Assembly: GCA_029975475.1 (NCBI GenBank)
Contig: JARKPB010000009.1
Location: 1 to 64,000, forward strand
Origin: Anaerolineaceae bacterium
GTDB taxonomy: Bacteria > Chloroflexota > Anaerolineae > Anaerolineales > Anaerolineaceae
DNA: 64,000 bases
Direction: 5' to 3'
Shown: positions 2,181 through 57,090 of the stretch, piece by piece
Position numbering within the stretch: position 1 is the first letter of the stretch
Layout of the letters: the number at the start of each line of letters is the position of its first letter
The notes under the pieces: generated by a model
Seen by the model: the letters and a program-made list of their open reading frames with translations, nothing else
Told to the model about the DNA's origin: nothing
Databases searched by the model: none
Position numbers and translations under genes: made by a program

Positions 2181-4214
2181 TTACGGGCAGGTCAGCCCAG
2201 GGATGATCTCGTTCAGCGCCACGGCCCGGTCAGGGGTATCCGGTGTTTGGCGTTGGATGCGCTGCCAGAGCACGCACAGCGGGGCGTTGGTGTATTCGTT
2301 TTGCGCCAGAGCAGCGCGGGTCAAAGCGATTGCCTGGTCCCAGCGGCCAAGATGGGCATACGCCTCGACCAGGACAAAATATTCGTAAGCATCTTCAGGA
2401 TGCAGCCCCTCGGCCAGAGCCTGGTCGCCGGCTTCCGCGGCGCGCTGCCAGTCGCCGCGCTGGCGGGCCAGATCGGCGTGCTCAAAATAATAGCACCAGC
2501 GGCGCGGCGGCTCCCCACCGTACAGGGCGGGCAGCGGCCGGGCTGGAGGCGCATCCAGTTGGATCAGGTCTAAACGGGAAAGCGGCAGAGCCTGCCTGAG
2601 CCGATCGGGGATAATGCCGGCATATCGGTCAATTTCAGGATCCAGCACGCGCAGACAGGCTGGCGGGTTGTAGAGCACGACCAGCAGCTGATCGGTGCTG
2701 CCGTCAAACACGGCGGCGCGGTAATCAACCTGGATGGGTAAACCGGGCGAAAGGGCGGGGATTTCGACCCCCAGGCGCATGGTGGGCCAGGCCAGCCAGT
2801 ATTTCATCTGCCGCGAGGTCGAGTCGGGATCATACAGCCAGTTGAGCGGCGCGGTCAACGAGTTGTCGGTGTAATGCGGCATGTCCGATTCGTTGATCAG
2901 CAGGGTGGTGCCTTCCCGCAGGGCGGGGATGCGCCAGCTCATCTGCCAGAATAAATTCTGCTGAAAAACCCAGTCGCGGCGGTACTCCTGGGCATTGACG
3001 AACTGCATGCCAACCGCCAAACCGAGCAGCAAGCCATAGCTCAGCCCGCGTCCCAGCTTCCCGAAGGGCAGCAGGCCGATCAAAACGGCCAGGAGCAGCC
3101 CGGCGCCAAACATAAAAGGCATGGTAAAGCGGTCGGCAGCAAAGACGACCATGATGGGTAAATCGACCGCCCAGAACGAGCCGCCGGCCAGCGCCAGGCT
3201 GACCAGGGCGATCGCCAGCGGCTGCCAGGCGGCGCGCAGGGCGGGCTTTTCCGGGCGGGCGAAGCGCCAGAAGAAAAGCGCTGACAGGCCCGCGGCGAGC
3301 AGCCCGAGGGCGATAAAGCCGAGTCGGGTGGCGCGCTCCTGGCCGGCCAGGGTGAGCAGGGTGAGCAGCGCGCGCTGCCAGGCGCCGCCGGTGGTGATCC
3401 ACAGGTCGCGGACGGCGCGGGCGAGCAGCTCCGGCAGGGCGGCGCCCGGGGCGCTGAGCAGCTGTTCGGCCAGGGTCGGCTCGTAGCGCAGGAAGCCCTG
3501 GATAAAGACACGCCAGTAAAGCGCGGCACCAAAGAGCAGCAGGTAAGGCAGCCAGGCGAGGATGGTTTTGCCTAAACGCCGGCGCCAGGGCAGCCCGCCA
3601 GCCATAGCGAACCAGAGCAGCAGCGGGCGCAGCAGATCGGGAAAGAAGAAGTATTCCGTGGTAAAGAGATTGAGCGCTGAGGCGGCCAGCGCGGCCAGGG
3701 TCCAGGCCAGACGGCGGCGCTGCGATTGCACCGCGCGCAGCATCAGGTAGAGGGAGAGCAGGTAAGCGCCCAGCACCAGGTAGTAGTGGCTGAAGACCAG
3801 GGCAACATACTGCTGGCTAAACCCGGGATAGACCAGATGAAACGCGGCTGCCGCAGCTGCCAGCTGTTCGCGGCCGGGCCACAGACGGCGCAGCAGCATC
3901 CAGACCAGCAGCGCGCATCCCCAGCGCAAGACCAGCGCAAAAATGTGCCAGGCCAGGGCGTGCGTTCCAAAGATTGGGGTGGTGAGCTGGTAAAGCACAC
4001 CCCACAGGGGACGGTCATACGAAAAGAAATCCGCCAGCCCCTGCGCGCCAAAGCGCTGGCTGATCCACAGCTTGGGGAAGTCATCCCAGTAGAAGCCGAG
4101 GTCAGCCAGGCGGGGGGCATAAGCCAGCAGCGCCAGTAGAAACAGGAATAACGGAACGGCGGCAGGTGAGACGAAAAACTGGAGAAGGCGGTTCAACCGG
4201 TTAGGCAGGCGCAT
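2181..4214 (-). CDS. Polytopic membrane protein, GT-C glycosyltransferase-like, with C-terminal TPR-like segment
   Basis: This 677-residue protein has about ten to twelve hydrophobic segments in its first 420 residues. Its first periplasmic loop carries an acidic pair (FYWDDF, D44/D45), as in GT-C lipid-linked glycosyltransferases of the PMT/ArnT type. The last 150 residues are soluble and contain helix pairs resembling TPR repeats (H-E-DAYEYFVLVEAYAHLG and following). The specific donor and acceptor cannot be told. It sits upstream of galE in an apparent operon, consistent with surface glycan assembly. The start codon has no Shine-Dalgarno, but a TATAAT box ends 7 bases upstream, which suggests a leaderless mRNA. 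Confidence 0.6.
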   Translation of the reverse strand: MRLPNRLNRLLQFFVSPAAVPLFLFLLALLAYAPRLADLGFYWDDFPKLWISQRFGAQGLADFFSYDRPLWGVLYQLTTPIFGTHALAWHIFALVLRWGCALLVWMLLRRLWPGREQLAAAAAAFHLVYPGFSQQYVALVFSHYYLVLGAYLLSLYLMLRAVQSQRRRLAWTLAALAASALNLFTTEYFFFPDLLRPLLLWFAMAGGLPWRRRLGKTILAWLPYLLLFGAALYWRVFIQGFLRYEPTLAEQLLSAPGAALPELLARAVRDLWITTGGAWQRALLTLLTLAGQERATRLGFIALGLLAAGLSALFFWRFARPEKPALRAAWQPLAIALVSLALAGGSFWAVDLPIMVVFAADRFTMPFMFGAGLLLAVLIGLLPFGKLGRGLSYGLLLGLAVGMQFVNAQEYRRDWVFQQNLFWQMSWRIPALREGTTLLINESDMPHYTDNSLTAPLNWLYDPDSTSRQMKYWLAWPTMRLGVEIPALSPGLPIQVDYRAAVFDGSTDQLLVVLYNPPACLRVLDPEIDRYAGIIPDRLRQALPLSRLDLIQLDAPPARPLPALYGGEPPRRWCYYFEHADLARQRGDWQRAAEAGDQALAEGLHPEDAYEYFVLVEAYAHLGRWDQAIALTRAALAQNEYTNAPLCVLWQRIQRQTPDTPDRAVALNEIIPGLTCP

Positions 4215-5716: not shown

Positions 5717-8047
5717 TCAGGGGATATTCTGCGAAGGGAGTTTGAAAAGCGCCCCGCCGCTGCTTAAGAACTGTCTCCCTTCTTTGCCAATCGTCTGCCA
5801 GCAGTCAAAGTCATTGATCGCCCGCGGCGGGCTGCCCTCGCCGACCCACAGGACGCAGCCGGGTTGATACGCCAGCCAGTCTGCCGGGCTGTCAGCAGAC
5901 CAGTTTTCATCGTCCAGTACCAGGAAAGCCGGCTGGCGTAAATCCACCTTTGTCTGCTGAGATAACGGGTAAGCCTGCCAGCAGCCCGGCAGCAGCAAAC
6001 GGAAATTCCCGTACGTGAGCAGGTAGGCGGGACATTCGGCTTTCGCAGCGGCCAGGGTAAGCCGCAGCGGCGGATCGCCCGAGGTTGACAGAGACTGGCC
6101 GGTTTCGATCCATTGCGGCGCAGCCTCCTGAACTTTGAGCTCCTCATAAACACTTGCTGCGGTGCGCGAGTTGCGCATCGGCCAGGGCCAGTACACACCC
6201 CGCGGCCGAAAGCGCCCAATCAGGTCCGGCAGGTCTGCAATCCCATCTGGCGCGGATGTAGCCAAAGCCAGCGCGCTGATGCGCGGATCTACAAACGCCA
6301 CTTCACGGCTGGCCAGCGGGACAAGGTCGCGCGCTGGCAGACCCGATTGAATCAACAAAGTTTCCCCGCCGGGCAGCCGCACCAGCAAAGCGGATCGGCC
6401 GCCCTGCGCCCAGAGGGTTAGCCTCAGCCGCCCATCCAGACGCGGATAAAGCCCTGACCAGACGATCCCGGCTGCAGCAGCGACCAGCAGCGCAACAAGG
6501 GCCGGCCGAGTCCAGGGCTGCTTCTGCCAGTACACGCGCGTAAACCATGCCAGAAGGAATATGAAATAGATCCCGAGCGCAATCCAACCGGGCAAATCCG
6601 CCAGATTGAGGGAAGCCGTGGGAACCCGGGCAAGGCCGCGGGCGGCCGCATTGGTCAGCAGGGCCGGCAGCCAGGCCAGCGGGCTGAAAAGGCGCGCCAG
6701 GGGCAGCCAGACAAATGCCAGCAGCAAGACCAGGCCTCCAGCGACCATCAGCATCGGTTGAAGCGGCAGAACCAGCGGATTGGCCAGCAAAGCGATTAAA
6801 GAAAAACGATGAAAATGATAGGCGGTCACCGGCAGGGTGGCCAGCTGGGCCGCCAGGGTGACCAGAAAATATTCACTGAGCGGTCCGCGCAAGCGCTTCG
6901 CCCAGCCCCCGGGCAGGACCCGCAGCACCCAGCGGTCGGCCAGCGCCTGCATCCCGTCCACCAGCGTGATCATGCCCAGCGTGGCGGTAAACGAAAGTTG
7001 AAAACTGACATCTCCAATCAGGTCGGGGTCAACCGCGGCCATCACCGCGGCGGTAAAAGCGAGCGCATTCATCCCTGAGTGGCGGCGGCCAATCTGACGG
7101 CCGATCATCGCCATTCCGCCCATGATCGCCGCGCGCACCACGGGAGGCTCCGCGCCAACCAGCAGGGTGTAAACCCCAATGAGCAGCAGCGCGGTCAGAG
7201 CTGACCACCAGCGGGTCAGTAATTTTTCAAACAGGCGAAAGATCAACCCGACCAGCAGTGAAATATTGAACCCGGAGATGGCAATAATGTGCGCCAGGCC
7301 GGTCAGGCGGTAGGCTTCCGCCAGATCCGGCGGCAGGCCGGCATCCAGCCCAAGCAGAATGCCCGACTGCAGCTCGGCCTCATCGCGCGGGTAGAGCACC
7401 ATCAGCAGGCGGCGGGCCTGACCGCGCAGACGGTAAAGGGCGGAATAGAACGGACTGCCCTGAGCGGCGGCAATCCGGCGGATTTGAGGATAATAAAGCA
7501 CCGTACGGATTCCCTGACGCGCCAGGTATTCACGATAACCGTAAGACCGGGTAACGGACGGCGCCCGGGGAATACCCCAAACCTCTACGCGGTCGCCATA
7601 AGCCCAGGTGGCTCTAGACGGTGTCCAGACCAGCGCGTCGCCCCTGACCGGCATGCTGGTGGAATTATCATCTAAATTGAGTCTGTCCACGCGCAGGCGG
7701 AAGGAAAGGCGCCCGTTCTTTTCTTCAGGCATGCTGATTATCTCGCCCTGCAGCCGCAGCCGGCCCCAGTTGTTATACCAGGCCAGGTCGCCCAGCGTCA
7801 CCGCCGGCCGGGCCAACCCGGCGCGCAGACCGCCCAGAGCGATAAAAGCGATCAACAACCCTGCCGGCAGGGGACAGCGACGGCGAAAAACCGCGTAACC
7901 GGCCAGGCGGGGGTTCCACCGGCTTTCCAGCCATGCCAGCAGCCCAAACAGCAAGACCGCCGCCAGCCAGTCATACCAGGGAAGGGACAAACCGCTGCCC
8001 AGCCCCAAGCCGAGTAAAAAAGCCCCGGAAAGCCAAAGCAGCGGCAA
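5717..8047 (-). CDS. comEC: ComEC/Rec2-type competence membrane protein with degenerate metallo-beta-lactamase domain
   Basis: This 776-residue protein resembles ComEC, the channel that moves transforming DNA across the inner membrane. Hydrophobic N-terminal segments are followed by a soluble OB-like region (DUF4131-like), then the Competence domain with the hallmark GLAHIIAISGFNISLLVG (about 250-267) and eight or so membrane helices. The C-terminal 200 residues align in layout with the beta-lactamase-like domain, but the metal motif is gone: where family members have a THxDxDH-type signature this one reads ATSAPDGIADL. The start is a TTG with a GAGG site 5-6 bases upstream. Whether it supports DNA uptake is uncertain; no comEA or pilus genes are in view. 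Confidence 0.85.
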   Translation of the reverse strand: MPLLWLSGAFLLGLGLGSGLSLPWYDWLAAVLLFGLLAWLESRWNPRLAGYAVFRRRCPLPAGLLIAFIALGGLRAGLARPAVTLGDLAWYNNWGRLRLQGEIISMPEEKNGRLSFRLRVDRLNLDDNSTSMPVRGDALVWTPSRATWAYGDRVEVWGIPRAPSVTRSYGYREYLARQGIRTVLYYPQIRRIAAAQGSPFYSALYRLRGQARRLLMVLYPRDEAELQSGILLGLDAGLPPDLAEAYRLTGLAHIIAISGFNISLLVGLIFRLFEKLLTRWWSALTALLLIGVYTLLVGAEPPVVRAAIMGGMAMIGRQIGRRHSGMNALAFTAAVMAAVDPDLIGDVSFQLSFTATLGMITLVDGMQALADRWVLRVLPGGWAKRLRGPLSEYFLVTLAAQLATLPVTAYHFHRFSLIALLANPLVLPLQPMLMVAGGLVLLLAFVWLPLARLFSPLAWLPALLTNAAARGLARVPTASLNLADLPGWIALGIYFIFLLAWFTRVYWQKQPWTRPALVALLVAAAAGIVWSGLYPRLDGRLRLTLWAQGGRSALLVRLPGGETLLIQSGLPARDLVPLASREVAFVDPRISALALATSAPDGIADLPDLIGRFRPRGVYWPWPMRNSRTAASVYEELKVQEAAPQWIETGQSLSTSGDPPLRLTLAAAKAECPAYLLTYGNFRLLLPGCWQAYPLSQQTKVDLRQPAFLVLDDENWSADSPADWLAYQPGCVLWVGEGSPPRAINDFDCWQTIGKEGRQFLSSGGALFKLPSQNIP

Positions 8048-52702: not shown

Positions 52703-54475
52703 CTAGAGTTTTTCCAATTGATCCACCAGCCCGGCAATGACATTAAAACCGCCCTGCCAGAATTCAGCCTTGCGCACATCCACCCCGGCCTGGTCAAGGA
52801 TCTCCATCGGCGCGATTGAACCGCCCGCTTCCAGCAGGCGAATGTAGCGCGGTTTGAAAGCCTCGCCTTCCTGCTTGTATTGCTGGTAGAGCGAAAGCAC
52901 CAGCAGCTGTCCAAAGGCGTAAGCGTAGACATAAAACGGCACTTCGTAAATATGGGGGATGGAAACCCATTCCCATTTGAAGGCTTCGTCTACCTCCACG
53001 GCATCACCGAACTGTTCCTGCAGATTCTGGAAATACGCAGCGCACAGCTCGTCCACAGACGCGCCGTCGTGGATCATCTCGTGGGCCTGTTTTTCAAAGA
53101 GGGCAAAGAAAATCTGACGCTGGATGGTGGCGTAGGCGTCATCCACCTGGCGGAAGAGCAGATCGCGGCGCACAGCCGGGTCGCTTTCCTCAGCCAGGAG
53201 GCGGTCAATCAGCATCATTTCGCCAAAAGTGCTGGCCGTCTCAGCCAGCGGCAGGCAGGCGTGGTGGGTGAACACGCTGTGGCCGGCAGCCAGCATCGAA
53301 TGGATGGCGTGGCCCAGCTCGTGCGCCATGGTGGCGACATCGTCCGCCTTGCCCTGGTAATTGAGCAGCACCCAGGGGGTCATGCCCGGCACAGCGGTCG
53401 CGCAAAACGCCCCGCCGCGCTTGCCCTTGCGCACTTCGGCATCCAGACGGTTTTCGGCGAAGACGCGCTCGGCCAGCTCGGCGAAACGCGGATGAAACTG
53501 GCCAAACGATTCAAGCACCAAATCAGCCGCCTGAGGGTAAGCGAAGGGTTTTTCTGACTTAGCCACCGGCGCGTATATATCGTACCGGCGCAGCCGATCC
53601 ATACCCAGCAGGCGCGCTTTGAGTTTGAAGAAACGCTGAAAGACGCCGACATTTTTTCTGGCGACTTCCATCAGGGTATCAATCACTTCGTCCGGCAGGT
53701 CGTTCATCAGGTTGCGGGCAGCGATCGGGCTCTTAAAACCGCGCATTTTAACCTGTTCGTTGCGCCAGTCGCGCACCAGCGCCTGGTACATCTGCCCGAG
53801 AATGTCGCCGTCCTCTCCGTATACGCGGTAGAGCTCGCGGTAAGCGGCGGCGCGGTAATCCGGGTTGTAGTGGCGGGCATAAGACATCAGCTCGCCGCGG
53901 GTTAATTCCTTGACCTCACCCTCAATTTCGACCTTAAACACATAGCGGTTGGTCAGAGCGCTGTACAGGTTCTGAATGGCGCTCGCGCCGGTCACGTTTT
54001 TGGTGTTGATGATCTTTTCTTCCGGCTCGCTCAGGGTGTAATCCTTAAAGTGGCGCATTTCTTCCAGCCAGTAGCGGTAATCGCCGCTGTTGGCCATCAG
54101 TCGGGCCGCCTGGGCTTCCGGTAAGGCTTTCCACCACAGGCTGAAGAACAGGGTGCGGTTGCTCATTTCAGCCATGAACTGATCCACGCGGCCGATCAAG
54201 GTCTGCGCGGTTTGATTCTGGGTATTTTCAGCGAAATACAGCCCGGCGAAGGAATAGATAATGTTCGCGTCGTAGGTCATCTGCTCGAGCCGGCGGATAA
54301 TATCGAGGAATTCGTTTTCGGGCAGGTCGTCACGCAGGCTGGCGCGCAGGGTTTCAAATTCAGAAACCTTTTCTTCCAGGCGTTTTAAAGCAGCCTCCAG
54401 TTCCGGGCCGGGGCCGCCGGGGATCAGGGGATCCAGACTCCAGCGGGTTTGCTGGTAAGGGCGGGTAAGGGTCAT
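52703..54475 (-). CDS. pepF: Oligoendopeptidase F (M3 family metallopeptidase)
   Basis: This 590-residue cytosolic zinc peptidase cleaves short peptides. The helical N-terminal domain (about 1-200) precedes the catalytic domain with the zinc motif ATMAHELGHAIHSML (H-E-x-x-H, about 384-398) and downstream Glu in the TASTFGEMMLIDRL helix. Length is typical of PepF. Its start overlaps the stop of the DNA methyltransferase gene by four bases (ATGA), so it is co-translated with it. Confidence 0.95.
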   Translation of the reverse strand: MTLTRPYQQTRWSLDPLIPGGPGPELEAALKRLEEKVSEFETLRASLRDDLPENEFLDIIRRLEQMTYDANIIYSFAGLYFAENTQNQTAQTLIGRVDQFMAEMSNRTLFFSLWWKALPEAQAARLMANSGDYRYWLEEMRHFKDYTLSEPEEKIINTKNVTGASAIQNLYSALTNRYVFKVEIEGEVKELTRGELMSYARHYNPDYRAAAYRELYRVYGEDGDILGQMYQALVRDWRNEQVKMRGFKSPIAARNLMNDLPDEVIDTLMEVARKNVGVFQRFFKLKARLLGMDRLRRYDIYAPVAKSEKPFAYPQAADLVLESFGQFHPRFAELAERVFAENRLDAEVRKGKRGGAFCATAVPGMTPWVLLNYQGKADDVATMAHELGHAIHSMLAAGHSVFTHHACLPLAETASTFGEMMLIDRLLAEESDPAVRRDLLFRQVDDAYATIQRQIFFALFEKQAHEMIHDGASVDELCAAYFQNLQEQFGDAVEVDEAFKWEWVSIPHIYEVPFYVYAYAFGQLLVLSLYQQYKQEGEAFKPRYIRLLEAGGSIAPMEILDQAGVDVRKAEFWQGGFNVIAGLVDQLEKL

Positions 54476-55593
54476 GATTTCTCCTCAGTTTGAAGGTATT
54501 TGCGCAGGCGCTGCCTGAGCCGGTCGATCGGCTGGCGCGGCCCGCCGGGGACAGCCTCGTACAGCCAGAGCTGCCAGCCATTGGCCAGCCCGTCCGCGCT
54601 GAGCAGGCGGGCAACGGCGTGGATAGAACCGCGCTGGTCATTATACTCCAGGCAACCGTCCGCCTGAATGACGGCGGATAAGCTTTGGTCGCTGCGGAAA
54701 TACAGGCGCTGACCGGGGGAAAGCAGGTTGTTTTCGAGCAGCGCGCCAAAGGGAATGCGCGGCAGGCGGCGCGGGGTATCCGGAGCCAGGGTCTGGGGAT
54801 CGGCCGGCTGGACGGCGCGGATGCGCTCGAGCGCGGCGCGGGCATAATCGGGATCCTGTTCAATCCCCAGCCAGCGGCGGCCCAGTTTTTCAGCCACCGC
54901 TCCGGTGGTGCCGGTGCCAAAAAAGGGGTCGAGCACCACCTGACCGGGAAGGGTGCAGGCGGTCAGTACGCGGTACAGCAGCGCCTCCGGTTTCTGGGTG
55001 GCATGCAGCTTGACGCCGTTGCGCCGCAGCCGCTCTTTGCCGTTGCAGAGCGGCAGGTACCAGTCCGACCGCATCTGTAAATCTTCATTCAAAGCGCGCA
55101 TGGCTTGATGGTTGAAAGTGTAGGTTTCACCCCGGGCGCGCACCGCCCAGATCAGGGTTTCATGCGCGTTGGTGAAGCGCACCCCGCGGAAGTTAGGCAT
55201 CGGGTTGGATTTGATCCAGATGATATCGTTAAGGATCCAGTAGCCAAGGTCCTGCAATATGGAACCCAGGCGGAAGATGTTGTGATAACTGCCCATGACC
55301 CAGATCGTTCCGCCGGGTTTGAGGATTCGGCGGCATTCCGCCAGCCATTCGCGCGAAAAGGCGTCGTAAGCGGTCAAATCAGGGAACTGGTCCCAGGCAT
55401 CGTCCACGCCGTCCACCAGGCTGCGGTTAGGGCGGCGCAGTTCCTGGCGCAGCTGCAGGTTGTAGGGCGGGTCAGCAAAGACAGCATCCACCGCGCCGTC
55501 CGGCAGACTTTTCAGCAGCTCGCGGCAGTCGCCCACCAGCACCTGGCCGGTGGGCAGTTCGGGGCGGATGCGGGTCATGGACTTATTTCCCAT
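54472..55593 (-). CDS. CcrM-like adenine-N6 DNA methyltransferase with C-terminal RAMA-like domain
   Basis: This 373-residue beta-class enzyme has DPPY (41-44), then the target-recognition-like RRPNRSLVDGVDDAWDQF segment, GSYHNIFRLGSILQDLGYW, and the SAM motif DPFFGTGTTG (about 218-227). The order and wording match CcrM of alphaproteobacteria, which methylates GANTC. Residues about 265-373 resemble the RAMA DNA-binding domain fused to CcrM (FGALLENNLLSPGQRLYF, the D-G-C-L segment, GSIHAVA, and the C-terminal PIDRLRQRLRKYL). No restriction enzyme is adjacent, so it is probably a solitary, regulatory methylase. The ATG at 55593 or 55578 may be the start; neither has a strong ribosome site. Confidence 0.87.
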   Translation of the reverse strand: MGNKSMTRIRPELPTGQVLVGDCRELLKSLPDGAVDAVFADPPYNLQLRQELRRPNRSLVDGVDDAWDQFPDLTAYDAFSREWLAECRRILKPGGTIWVMGSYHNIFRLGSILQDLGYWILNDIIWIKSNPMPNFRGVRFTNAHETLIWAVRARGETYTFNHQAMRALNEDLQMRSDWYLPLCNGKERLRRNGVKLHATQKPEALLYRVLTACTLPGQVVLDPFFGTGTTGAVAEKLGRRWLGIEQDPDYARAALERIRAVQPADPQTLAPDTPRRLPRIPFGALLENNLLSPGQRLYFRSDQSLSAVIQADGCLEYNDQRGSIHAVARLLSADGLANGWQLWLYEAVPGGPRQPIDRLRQRLRKYLQTEEKS

Positions 55594-56374
55594 CAGGAAC
55601 GCTGCGCAGCCCTTCCAGCATCTGCTGGTGGATATGCGGCGAGGCTGCCAGGATGGTCAGCGGCGGGGTCAGCGACAGGGGGGCTCCTTCTGCGGTGGTT
55701 ACGGTGGCGCCGGCTTCAGCGGCGATCAGCGCGCCAGCGGCCACATCGTGCGGCTGGATGCTCATTTCCCAGTAGCCGTCAAAACGCCCGGCGGCCAGGT
55801 AACACAAATCCATGGCGGCTGAACCCAGGCGGCGCACACCCTGGCTGTGCAGGGCGAAATATTCAAACAGGGGGAAGATGCGCCCCGGCTGCTGGCGGAT
55901 ATGATAGGGAAAACCGGTGATCAGCAGGCTGTGATCCAGATCGGGCGGGTTGGTGACCTGCAGAGGGGTCGAACCGTTTAACCAGGCGCCTTTGCCCGCT
56001 TCCGCGGAAAAACACTCGTCATGCGAGGGATCATAGACCACCCCCAGGCGAAGTTGTCCGGCTTCAGCGAAGGCGATGGAAACCGTGTAGAGGGGAATGC
56101 CGTGGGCGTAGTTGACGGTGCCGTCCAGCGGATCCACATACCAGATGCGCTGGCTGCTGCCGGCCACCTGGCCAATTTCTTCCGAGAAAATCGTGTCGCC
56201 GGGAAAGGCAGCGCGGATCTGCTCCAGAATGTAAGCTTCCGAAAGGCCGTCAGCTTCGGTCACCAGGTCAATCAAACTTTTATGGCGAATTTTCAGGCTG
56301 CTGCGGAAGTGCTGGCGCAAGATCTCGCCGGCCTGGCGGGCCCAGCTTTCCACCTGCTCAAGTGTGGGCTGCAT
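55583..56374 (-). CDS. Inositol monophosphatase family protein
   Basis: This 263-residue magnesium-dependent phosphatase has the family motifs: SLIDLVTEAD, FSEEIGQ (Glu ligand), WYVDPLDGTVNYAHGIP (D-P-L-D-G-T) and the C-terminal QPHDVAAGALIAAEAGATVT (W/x-D-x-A-A-G). Substrates in the family include inositol monophosphate, PAP and fructose bisphosphate. The start at 56374 was chosen because AAGGAT lies 9 bases before it. It overlaps the methyltransferase start, so the order is phosphatase, methyltransferase, pepF in one operon. Confidence 0.92.
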   Translation of the reverse strand: MQPTLEQVESWARQAGEILRQHFRSSLKIRHKSLIDLVTEADGLSEAYILEQIRAAFPGDTIFSEEIGQVAGSSQRIWYVDPLDGTVNYAHGIPLYTVSIAFAEAGQLRLGVVYDPSHDECFSAEAGKGAWLNGSTPLQVTNPPDLDHSLLITGFPYHIRQQPGRIFPLFEYFALHSQGVRRLGSAAMDLCYLAAGRFDGYWEMSIQPHDVAAGALIAAEAGATVTTAEGAPLSLTPPLTILAASPHIHQQMLEGLRSVPDGK

Positions 56375-56454
56375 CACATCTTCATCCTTTTTGGTTGGAG
56401 TCAAAAGGCGGGCATGCTCTGCCCGCCCGTTGTTGCCGGTTCGCCGGGGCGGGG

Positions 56455-57090
56455 CTAGCCTTCCCCGGGCGGATCAAACTGGTCGAGCATCTGATGAAGC
56501 TGATCCAGTTCCTTTTGGATCTCATCGCGGTCAGCGATTGCCTGCTGCAGCAGCGCCTGAAAGCCGGCCACCTGGTCGGGCGGCAGGGTTTCCAGCAGCC
56601 GCTCGGTGCGGCTGATCTGGGTATTTTTATAGCGCAGCTTGTTTTCCAGGCGGGAAAGGTAACCGGAGTAAAACTCGGCATCCGCCAGCGGGCGCGGCAG
56701 GGTTGAGATGCCCTGGGTCAGGATCTCCGCCACGGTGAGGAGGAAATCTTCTGTGTCGATTGGCTTTTCAATGAAGCGCACCGCTCCCAGATACAGCGCG
56801 AAATTCTTATCCTCCTGGGTGATATACGTGGCGGAAAGGAAGATGACCGGGATCTGACTGGTGAGGGGGTTCTTGCGCAGCGTGTGCACCAAGGCGTAGC
56901 CGTCCATGCGCGGCATGAGGATGTCCGTAATGATCAGCGCGGGGCGCTCTCTGGCGATCACCTCCAGGGCTTCCTGACCGTTGCGGGCGGTGATGACCGG
57001 ATAGCCCTTAAACCGCAGGGTGGCCTCCAGCAGTTCCAGCACGTTGGGGATGTCTTCCACCACGAGGATGGGGCCAATCGGGATGTTCAT
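56455..57090 (-). CDS. Response regulator with C-terminal coiled coil
   Basis: This 211-residue protein has a receiver domain (1-125; Glu12/Asp13, phospho-acceptor Asp56 in IITDILMPRMDGY, Lys109 in FIEKP). An 80-residue helical extension follows, with heptad-like LLETLPPDQVAGFQALLQQA and EIQKELDQLHQMLDQF. No DNA-binding domain is visible, so output is probably by protein contact. It is on the same strand as the phosphatase operon, 80 bp upstream. The kinase is not in the window. Confidence 0.9.
   Translation of the reverse strand: MNIPIGPILVVEDIPNVLELLEATLRFKGYPVITARNGQEALEVIARERPALIITDILMPRMDGYALVHTLRKNPLTSQIPVIFLSATYITQEDKNFALYLGAVRFIEKPIDTEDFLLTVAEILTQGISTLPRPLADAEFYSGYLSRLENKLRYKNTQISRTERLLETLPPDQVAGFQALLQQAIADRDEIQKELDQLHQMLDQFDPPGEG

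Follow-up and report, generated by a model that had tools for sequence, protein, structure and literature searches.

The ccrM gene and its product

A 64,000-nucleotide stretch of DNA from an Anaerolineaceae bacterium (assembly GCA_029975475.1, contig JARKPB010000009.1, positions 1 to 64,000; hereafter the window) was analysed for a gene encoding a CcrM-type methyltransferase and for the possible role of this enzyme in the replication cycle. CcrM is the textbook cell-cycle methylase of alphaproteobacteria and times the Caulobacter cell cycle; the cell cycle of Chloroflexota has, to our knowledge, been little studied. The gene lies at 54472..55593 on the minus strand and encodes 373 amino acids, with an alternative possible start ATG at 55578; the plus-strand frame of the same interval is broken by stops. 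Its ATG at 55593 falls inside the end of a gene of the inositol monophosphatase (IMPase) family (55583..56404, minus strand), and its TGA stop is joined to the start of an M3 family oligoendopeptidase gene (52703..54475, minus strand) in a single ATGA. Because of these two overlaps ccrM is probably expressed as part of an IMPase/M3 operon. A gene for a response-regulator receiver protein is located further upstream (56455..57090, minus strand). A sequence-only reading of this stretch had proposed that a GANTC methylase resembling CcrM occurs here outside the alphaproteobacteria, as a solitary enzyme encoded within an operon and with no adjoining endonuclease. The gene is real, the overlaps bear out the operon setting, and the two flanking genes in the window are those for the IMPase and the M3 peptidase.

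The predicted protein consists of an N6_N4_Mtase domain (residues 35-255, 54829..55491, minus strand; Pfam E 2.8e-60) and a C-terminal RAMA domain (residues 270-368, 54490..54786, minus strand; PF18755, E 2.7e-12), both above the cut-offs. The beta-class motifs are the catalytic DPPY at residues 41-44 and FFGTG at residues 224-228 (FxGxG). The closest solved structure is Caulobacter crescentus CcrM (6pbd, 415.6 bits, query residues 18-365), with 53% identity (184 of 345 aligned positions). Counterparts of two CcrM loops were located, Loop-2B at residues 41-71 (55381..55473, minus strand), which includes VDDAWDQF (residues 63-70), and the strand-separating Loop-45 with NPMPNF at residues 129-143 (55165..55209, minus strand). 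The likeness to CcrM that had been claimed from the catalytic order, the VDDAWDQF segment and a RAMA-like C-terminus was thus confirmed.

Publications are cited here by their PMC numbers. Forty-seven positions named in PMC6787082 as catalytic, base-reading, strand-separating, phosphate-binding or structural were compared, and 40 of them are identical in the window protein. Among these are DPPY, Arg44, which reads G1 (Arg54 of the window protein), the wedge Pro45 (Pro55), most of Loop-45, and all five phosphate-binding residues of the RAMA domain (Ser323, His325, Asn338, Trp340 and Arg360). The 6pbd chain has Trp where PMC6787082 gives Tyr109, and the loop start given in that paper is shifted by one position; both residues are identical in the window protein. 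The seven changed positions are Gly39, Gly40, Leu43, Asn47, Phe63, Lys126 and Ala328 of CcrM. Gly39, Gly40, Leu43, Asn47 and Ala328 vary across 19 aligned Chloroflexota proteins, and Lys126 is replaced by Arg in 17 of the 19. Phe63, which touches T4, is Leu in the window protein and is retained as Phe in 15 of the 19, while DPPY and the G1-reading Arg are present in all of them. The cut-off of the CcrM equivalog NF050803 of NCBIfam (830 bits) was not reached by the window protein (522.5 bits). This cut-off is narrow, since it was also missed by all five alphaproteobacterial CcrM proteins compared (578-637 bits). Judged by its predicted product, the window gene encodes a full-length CcrM-type methylase.

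The top match in a scan of genome contigs was the homologue of Anaerolineaceae bacterium BD1 (BGOS01000024.1, locus L060), with 61% identity; BD1 belongs to the same order as the window's bacterium. This record was equated by name with genome BD1 of PMC6329791, in which N6-methyladenine (m6A) was found at 6,754 of 6,844 GANTC sites (98.7%; published in 2019). As GANTC methylation has been measured in the genome of this top named relative, a GANTC specificity of the window enzyme is nearly certain, and the genome of the window is presumably methylated at GANTC as well. The same study reported m6A at 3,724 of 4,014 GANTC sites in the Anaerolineae genome BS3 and at 1,813 of 2,070 in Chloroflexi BS1. 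The assigned GANTC methylases of BD1 and BS3 are listed there without a restriction-modification (R-M) system, none was found in the incomplete BS1, and BD1 also has TTAA and GCWGC methylases. Furthermore, some Chloroflexi are already among the CcrM homologues with a conserved C-terminal domain in PMC3973325. Given these two sources, an orphan CcrM relative and GANTC methylation were already known in the phylum, and the solitary methylase of the sequence-only reading, although supported, is not new for Chloroflexota; what is new is its likely role. A literature search found no paper on the role of the CcrM relative in Chloroflexota.

Distribution and phylogeny

The gene is core-like in Anaerolineales and is carried by most sampled genomes. 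Among the sampled members of the order ccrM is present in 168 of 201 genomes and, by genus, in 75 of 90; among close relatives of the window's genome it was found in 33 of 41. Two genomes (G028 and G001) were scored as positive from partial matches. Across 400 Chloroflexota genomes the gene is present in 82, and families f36, f46 and f73 supply additional groups of carriers. The contig scan yielded 80 kept loci, assigned by title to Chloroflexota (18), Alphaproteobacteria (56) and others or unassigned (6). The ccrM segment of BD1 is identical to that of G038, a genome placed in Anaerolineales. No phage record matched the window methylase at 1e-40. Thirty records of a plasmid collection did, and the 23 that cover at least 80% of the query are alphaproteobacterial.

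In a quick maximum-likelihood tree of 111 sequences, built without duplicates, near-copies and every second of the 56 alphaproteobacterial loci, 74 Chloroflexota sequences and one unassigned sequence form a single group (SH-aLRT 99). Two f36 sequences, from another class, are placed among those of Anaerolineales, so some transfer of ccrM within Chloroflexota is likely. The outgroup L147 has a very long branch, so that the Chloroflexota group may be either sister to the alphaproteobacterial CcrM or nested in it.

In families f72, f86 and f90 (G207, G259, G272, G279, G300, G311, G314 and G334) the match spans only about residues 14-285, at 53-60% identity in frames of 316-462 amino acids; in these proteins the RAMA-like end may have diverged or given way to another sequence. 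Genome G021 carries two equal-scoring copies in opposite orientation on one contig (C64:12866-13930 and 133561-134625), possibly an assembly duplication.

GANTC sites upstream of dnaA

Within Anaerolineales the presence of CcrM correlates with a cluster of GANTC sites upstream of dnaA. Sites were counted in the 650 bp upstream of dnaA and compared with dinucleotide shuffles; this span had been chosen on the discovery set. In that set, 24 CcrM-bearing genomes have 117 sites (50.6 expected) and six genomes lacking CcrM have 12 (11.7 expected), while the observed/expected ratios of seven control palindromes ranged from 0.63 to 1.06 in the CcrM-bearing genomes. A held-out set gave 158 sites in 40 CcrM-bearing genomes (84.7 expected, Poisson P 8e-13; controls 0.67-1.05) and 36 in 17 genomes without CcrM (34.1 expected), and the two groups differ (Mann-Whitney P 0.003). 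The CcrM-negative status of four of the 17, the f13 genomes G448, G439, G463 and G468, was taken from their absence among the matches listed; leaving them out gives 34 sites, with about 28.4 expected. A third batch of 17 CcrM-bearing genomes has 86 sites (37.6 expected). The excess persists in the noncoding part (315 sites observed and 128.4 expected in 84 of 88 CcrM-bearing genomes; 29 and 28.9 in 21 of 23 CcrM-lacking genomes). The second dnaA copy of the window's genome (L300) was not counted beside the first (L236), nor was the CcrM-lacking G549, which has too little upstream DNA.

Specificity, position and genus means were assessed on the discovery set pooled with the later sets. When all 136 gapped two-plus-two motifs are compared, GANTC comes out first in 71 CcrM-bearing genomes (289 sites, 125.5 expected, z 19.4) and 62nd in 23 CcrM-lacking genomes; its six single-change relatives are not enriched upstream of dnaA. 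The excess falls between -600 and -100 from dnaA and peaks at -500 to -400, with 1.37 sites per CcrM-bearing genome as compared to 0.26 for the controls and 0.17 in genomes without CcrM. Spacing between adjacent sites peaks at 13 bp (16 pairs, related genomes being counted separately), and other spacings up to 40 bp occur at most seven times. In the window's family f1, the genus means are 5.52 for 20 CcrM-bearing genera versus 2.51 for nine CcrM-lacking genera (P 1e-4). One genus contains both states, with 2-9 sites in eight CcrM-bearing members and 1, 3 and 3 sites in three members without CcrM (P 0.025). On contig C5 of the window's own genome, the 650 bp preceding dnaA contain seven GANTC sites. 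Five of these lie past the end of the upstream gene, at -387, -330, -202, -167 and -115; the start codon used for this count may have been placed 24 codons too far upstream.

Two other sequence elements were seen in the same region. A palindrome with the consensus CCCCATATATGGGG sits some 330 bp before dnaA in 79 of 88 CcrM-bearing and 18 of 23 CcrM-lacking genomes, independent of the presence of CcrM (examples are L241, L242, L254 and L300 of the window's own genome); it occurred in 3 of 111 mononucleotide shuffles. A promoter-like TNTAGAAT is found within 350 bp upstream of dnaA in 45 of 71 and 9 of 23 genomes, respectively, and a looser promoter-like pattern with TAGAATC, which places GANTC over a -10-like element, in 11 CcrM-bearing genomes versus one without CcrM.

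A possible role in the replication cycle and its alternatives

We propose that the enzyme is an orphan m6A methylase of the CcrM type that acts in the replication cycle via the GANTC cluster upstream of dnaA, and consider this reading somewhat better than even (probability about 0.6). It would methylate GANTC throughout the genome of the window's bacterium, its most likely regulated target being the DNA upstream of dnaA, where the replication origin may also lie. Replication would leave the cluster hemimethylated until CcrM restores full methylation, and the hemimethylated state could signal that the region has just been copied. The state of the cluster could then gate dnaA expression or re-initiation, following the logic of Dam at oriC with another methylase and a postulated reader. 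The evidence for such a role is circumstantial and lies in the finding that the clusters occur upstream of dnaA only in CcrM-bearing Anaerolineales; we infer that hemimethylation is the signal and that it acts on dnaA or the origin. A more specific version, that Anaerolineales possess their own replication licensing by CcrM and a 13-bp-phased GANTC array, working as a Dam/oriC-like switch once per cycle with an undescribed reader and independently of GcrA and SeqA, is put forward tentatively and with less confidence than the general role.

Several results weigh against a role in replication. In BD1, the genome with measured methylation, the 650-bp stretch preceding dnaA contains just two GANTC sites. 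In families f7, f9 and f14 the means (2.0-2.8) are close to background, and the single CcrM-bearing f13 genome has no site. In other Chloroflexota classes, genomes with CcrM have no such cluster at dnaA (34 sites observed against 52.4 expected in the 22 usable loci of 28, six having been lost for too little upstream DNA; L372 of G279 excluded). No GANTC excess was found upstream of ftsZ either (25 observed, 47.1 expected). The count upstream of dnaA is reached by 0.31% of 7,740 sampled 650-bp windows in the window's own genome and by 0.39%, 1.09%, 4.34% and 13.75% of the sampled windows in the other four of five CcrM-bearing genomes. A clear GC-skew switch at dnaA was seen only in G017, a genome without CcrM, and skew leaves the origin unplaced elsewhere. 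Neither GcrA (PF07750) nor SeqA (PF03925) was found in any of 41 genomes. According to PMC3973325, CcrM methylation in Caulobacter is reported not to be required for the control of replication initiation. The alphaproteobacteria have a modest GANTC cluster upstream of dnaA (90 sites, 66.2 expected, 29 loci).

The losses of CcrM are few and clustered in few genera, and a tree-based test found two pairs on supported branches, too few to reach significance. These points also speak for an alternative in which the cluster is a trait of certain lineages with no link to methylation: GANTC would happen to lie within a protein-binding site near dnaA, and the few clades in which CcrM disappeared would have lost this site as well. 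The weak signal in several families and its absence from other classes fit such a trait as well. Against it, exact GANTC alone is enriched, with none of its six one-change relatives, and the difference also appears within the single genus that has members of either kind. The DNA upstream of dnaA was not lost as a whole, since the palindrome CCCCATATATGGGG is retained in both groups. We regard a mere lineage trait as unlikely.

The immediate surroundings of ccrM bear on a further possibility, a left-over or protective methylase that shields DNA against GANTC-cutting, HinfI-like restriction by competitors or mobile elements and has no regulatory role. M.HinfI and other methylases of GANTC R-M systems share the motif; compared by motif and neighbourhood only, the window gene differs from them in lacking an adjoining endonuclease. 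Of 70 Chloroflexota loci, 16 have the M3 peptidase gene as the immediate downstream neighbour of ccrM and five have the IMPase gene as its immediate upstream neighbour, and the other neighbours vary; eight of 78 loci had been lost from this comparison where the choice of open reading frames missed ccrM, and many have just 1.5 kb of flank. Protein families were searched for in 131 of 166 neighbouring reading frames from a slightly different set of 70 loci. Among the matches listed (25 of 108 for PADLOC and 25 of 128 for Pfam, so that single rare matches can be hidden), the commonest Pfam families were M3 and M16 peptidases, and no PADLOC restriction family matched two or more of the 131 neighbours. 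One type III restriction-like PADLOC match occurred among the 131 and was not among 29 rescanned neighbours, which gave helicase-like and candidate-defence matches in L032, L038, L045, L046 and L062.

In two of the 70 loci (L051:2602-3000 and L078:7180-7542) the next gene downstream of ccrM, on the same strand, is a nuclease-like DUF559 gene, and that of L078 is additionally above the REase_MTES_1575 cut-off. The more distant L147 methylase adjoins a type II endonuclease, and CcrM relatives adjoining endonucleases exist in other groups (PMC3973325). All three findings favour protection, and a restriction partner in relatives, which the sequence-only reading had named as evidence against its own proposal, was thus encountered in part, as a nuclease-like gene in two loci; two loci out of 70 do not alter the weight given here to the readings. 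Nevertheless, ccrM has no recognised nuclease neighbour in the window and in most, though not all, examined relatives. Its presence in most sampled Anaerolineales, in changing and mostly nuclease-free neighbourhoods, argues against a purely protective function, which would also leave unexplained why the dnaA cluster is restricted to CcrM-bearing genomes; such a function is improbable.

A transplanted GcrA-CcrM system, in which GcrA reads promoter GANTC sites and ccrM controls itself via GANTC in its own promoter, shares the full-length enzyme family with the window but is very improbable, since GcrA was found in none of the 41 genomes by a search that was positive in the Caulobacter control, and GANTC sites upstream of ccrM, as well as between genes, do not follow the expected pattern. 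In alphaproteobacteria, the 150 bp before the aligned ccrM start contain 123 GANTC sites, in 46 of 55 loci, compared to 12-29 for seven control palindromes. The corresponding region in Chloroflexota has no excess (44 sites in 78 loci versus 24-56 for the control palindromes), and no GANTC is present in the 300 bp upstream of the window's ccrM. The intergenic/coding ratio of GANTC in CcrM-bearing Chloroflexota (1.18 [0.95-1.43]) is not above that of Chloroflexota without CcrM (1.65 [1.26-2.09]). In alphaproteobacteria this ratio falls from 3.25 to 1.80 [1.40-2.29] when the kilobase upstream of ccrM is left out. The enzyme is a CcrM, and the tested parts of the alphaproteobacterial circuit are absent. 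Compared with the Caulobacter system, where GANTC sites occur in promoters of cell-cycle genes including dnaA (PMC2217572), the window gene also differs in its seven changed residues and its operon setting. The epigenetic clock suggested by the sequence-only reading therefore fails in its Caulobacter wiring, whereas the GANTC cluster upstream of dnaA speaks circumstantially for it; in this altered form the idea is plausible, but unproven.

Orphan methylases linked to origins offer a closer comparison for the proposed role in the replication cycle. For Dam and three further orphan methylases, PMC4752239 (section 15) describes motif clusters at putative origins whose occurrence correlates with that of the methylase. 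The examples given are GATC for Dam, TTAA in Arthrobacter, CTCGAG in Nocardia and a haloarchaeal motif that the text gives as CATG and the legend as CTAG. The Anaerolineales case resembles these in having a motif cluster by the initiator gene that correlates with the methylase. It differs in motif, enzyme family and phylum, in the lack of SeqA, and in position: its cluster lies upstream of dnaA, while the clusters described in that section flank the dnaA terminus or gidA. It thus appears to fit the origin-linked kind, with a CcrM-type enzyme and without GcrA or SeqA. Since the same enzyme is found in most sampled Anaerolineales without GcrA and with its sites gathered upstream of dnaA, the data suggest that one methylase is wired into the replication cycle differently in two phyla. 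Replication control linked to methylation can thereby be put to the test in Chloroflexota, and a new reader of hemimethylated GANTC is predicted. The licensing switch, if true, would add a CcrM-type system from Chloroflexota to Dam and the three other orphan methylases.

Genome-wide GANTC statistics were also considered as marks of CcrM. Intergenic enrichment was rejected as a hallmark in view of the ratio of 1.65 in Chloroflexota without CcrM and the poor separation of groups. Depletion was rejected as well, the observed/expected ratio in coding DNA being alike with and without CcrM (0.63 vs 0.66); the window itself contains 140 GANTC sites, with 216 expected. Local GANTC clusters elsewhere in the genomes followed no pattern that we could see, and the densest, in G564, looks like tRNA genes by eye (GATTCGAA). 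Besides ccrM, the window's genome carries three more N6_N4_Mtase genes, C18:928697-929413, C18:9255-10025 and C6:878-1876 (L002, L003 and L004), one of which encodes a 964-amino-acid protein.

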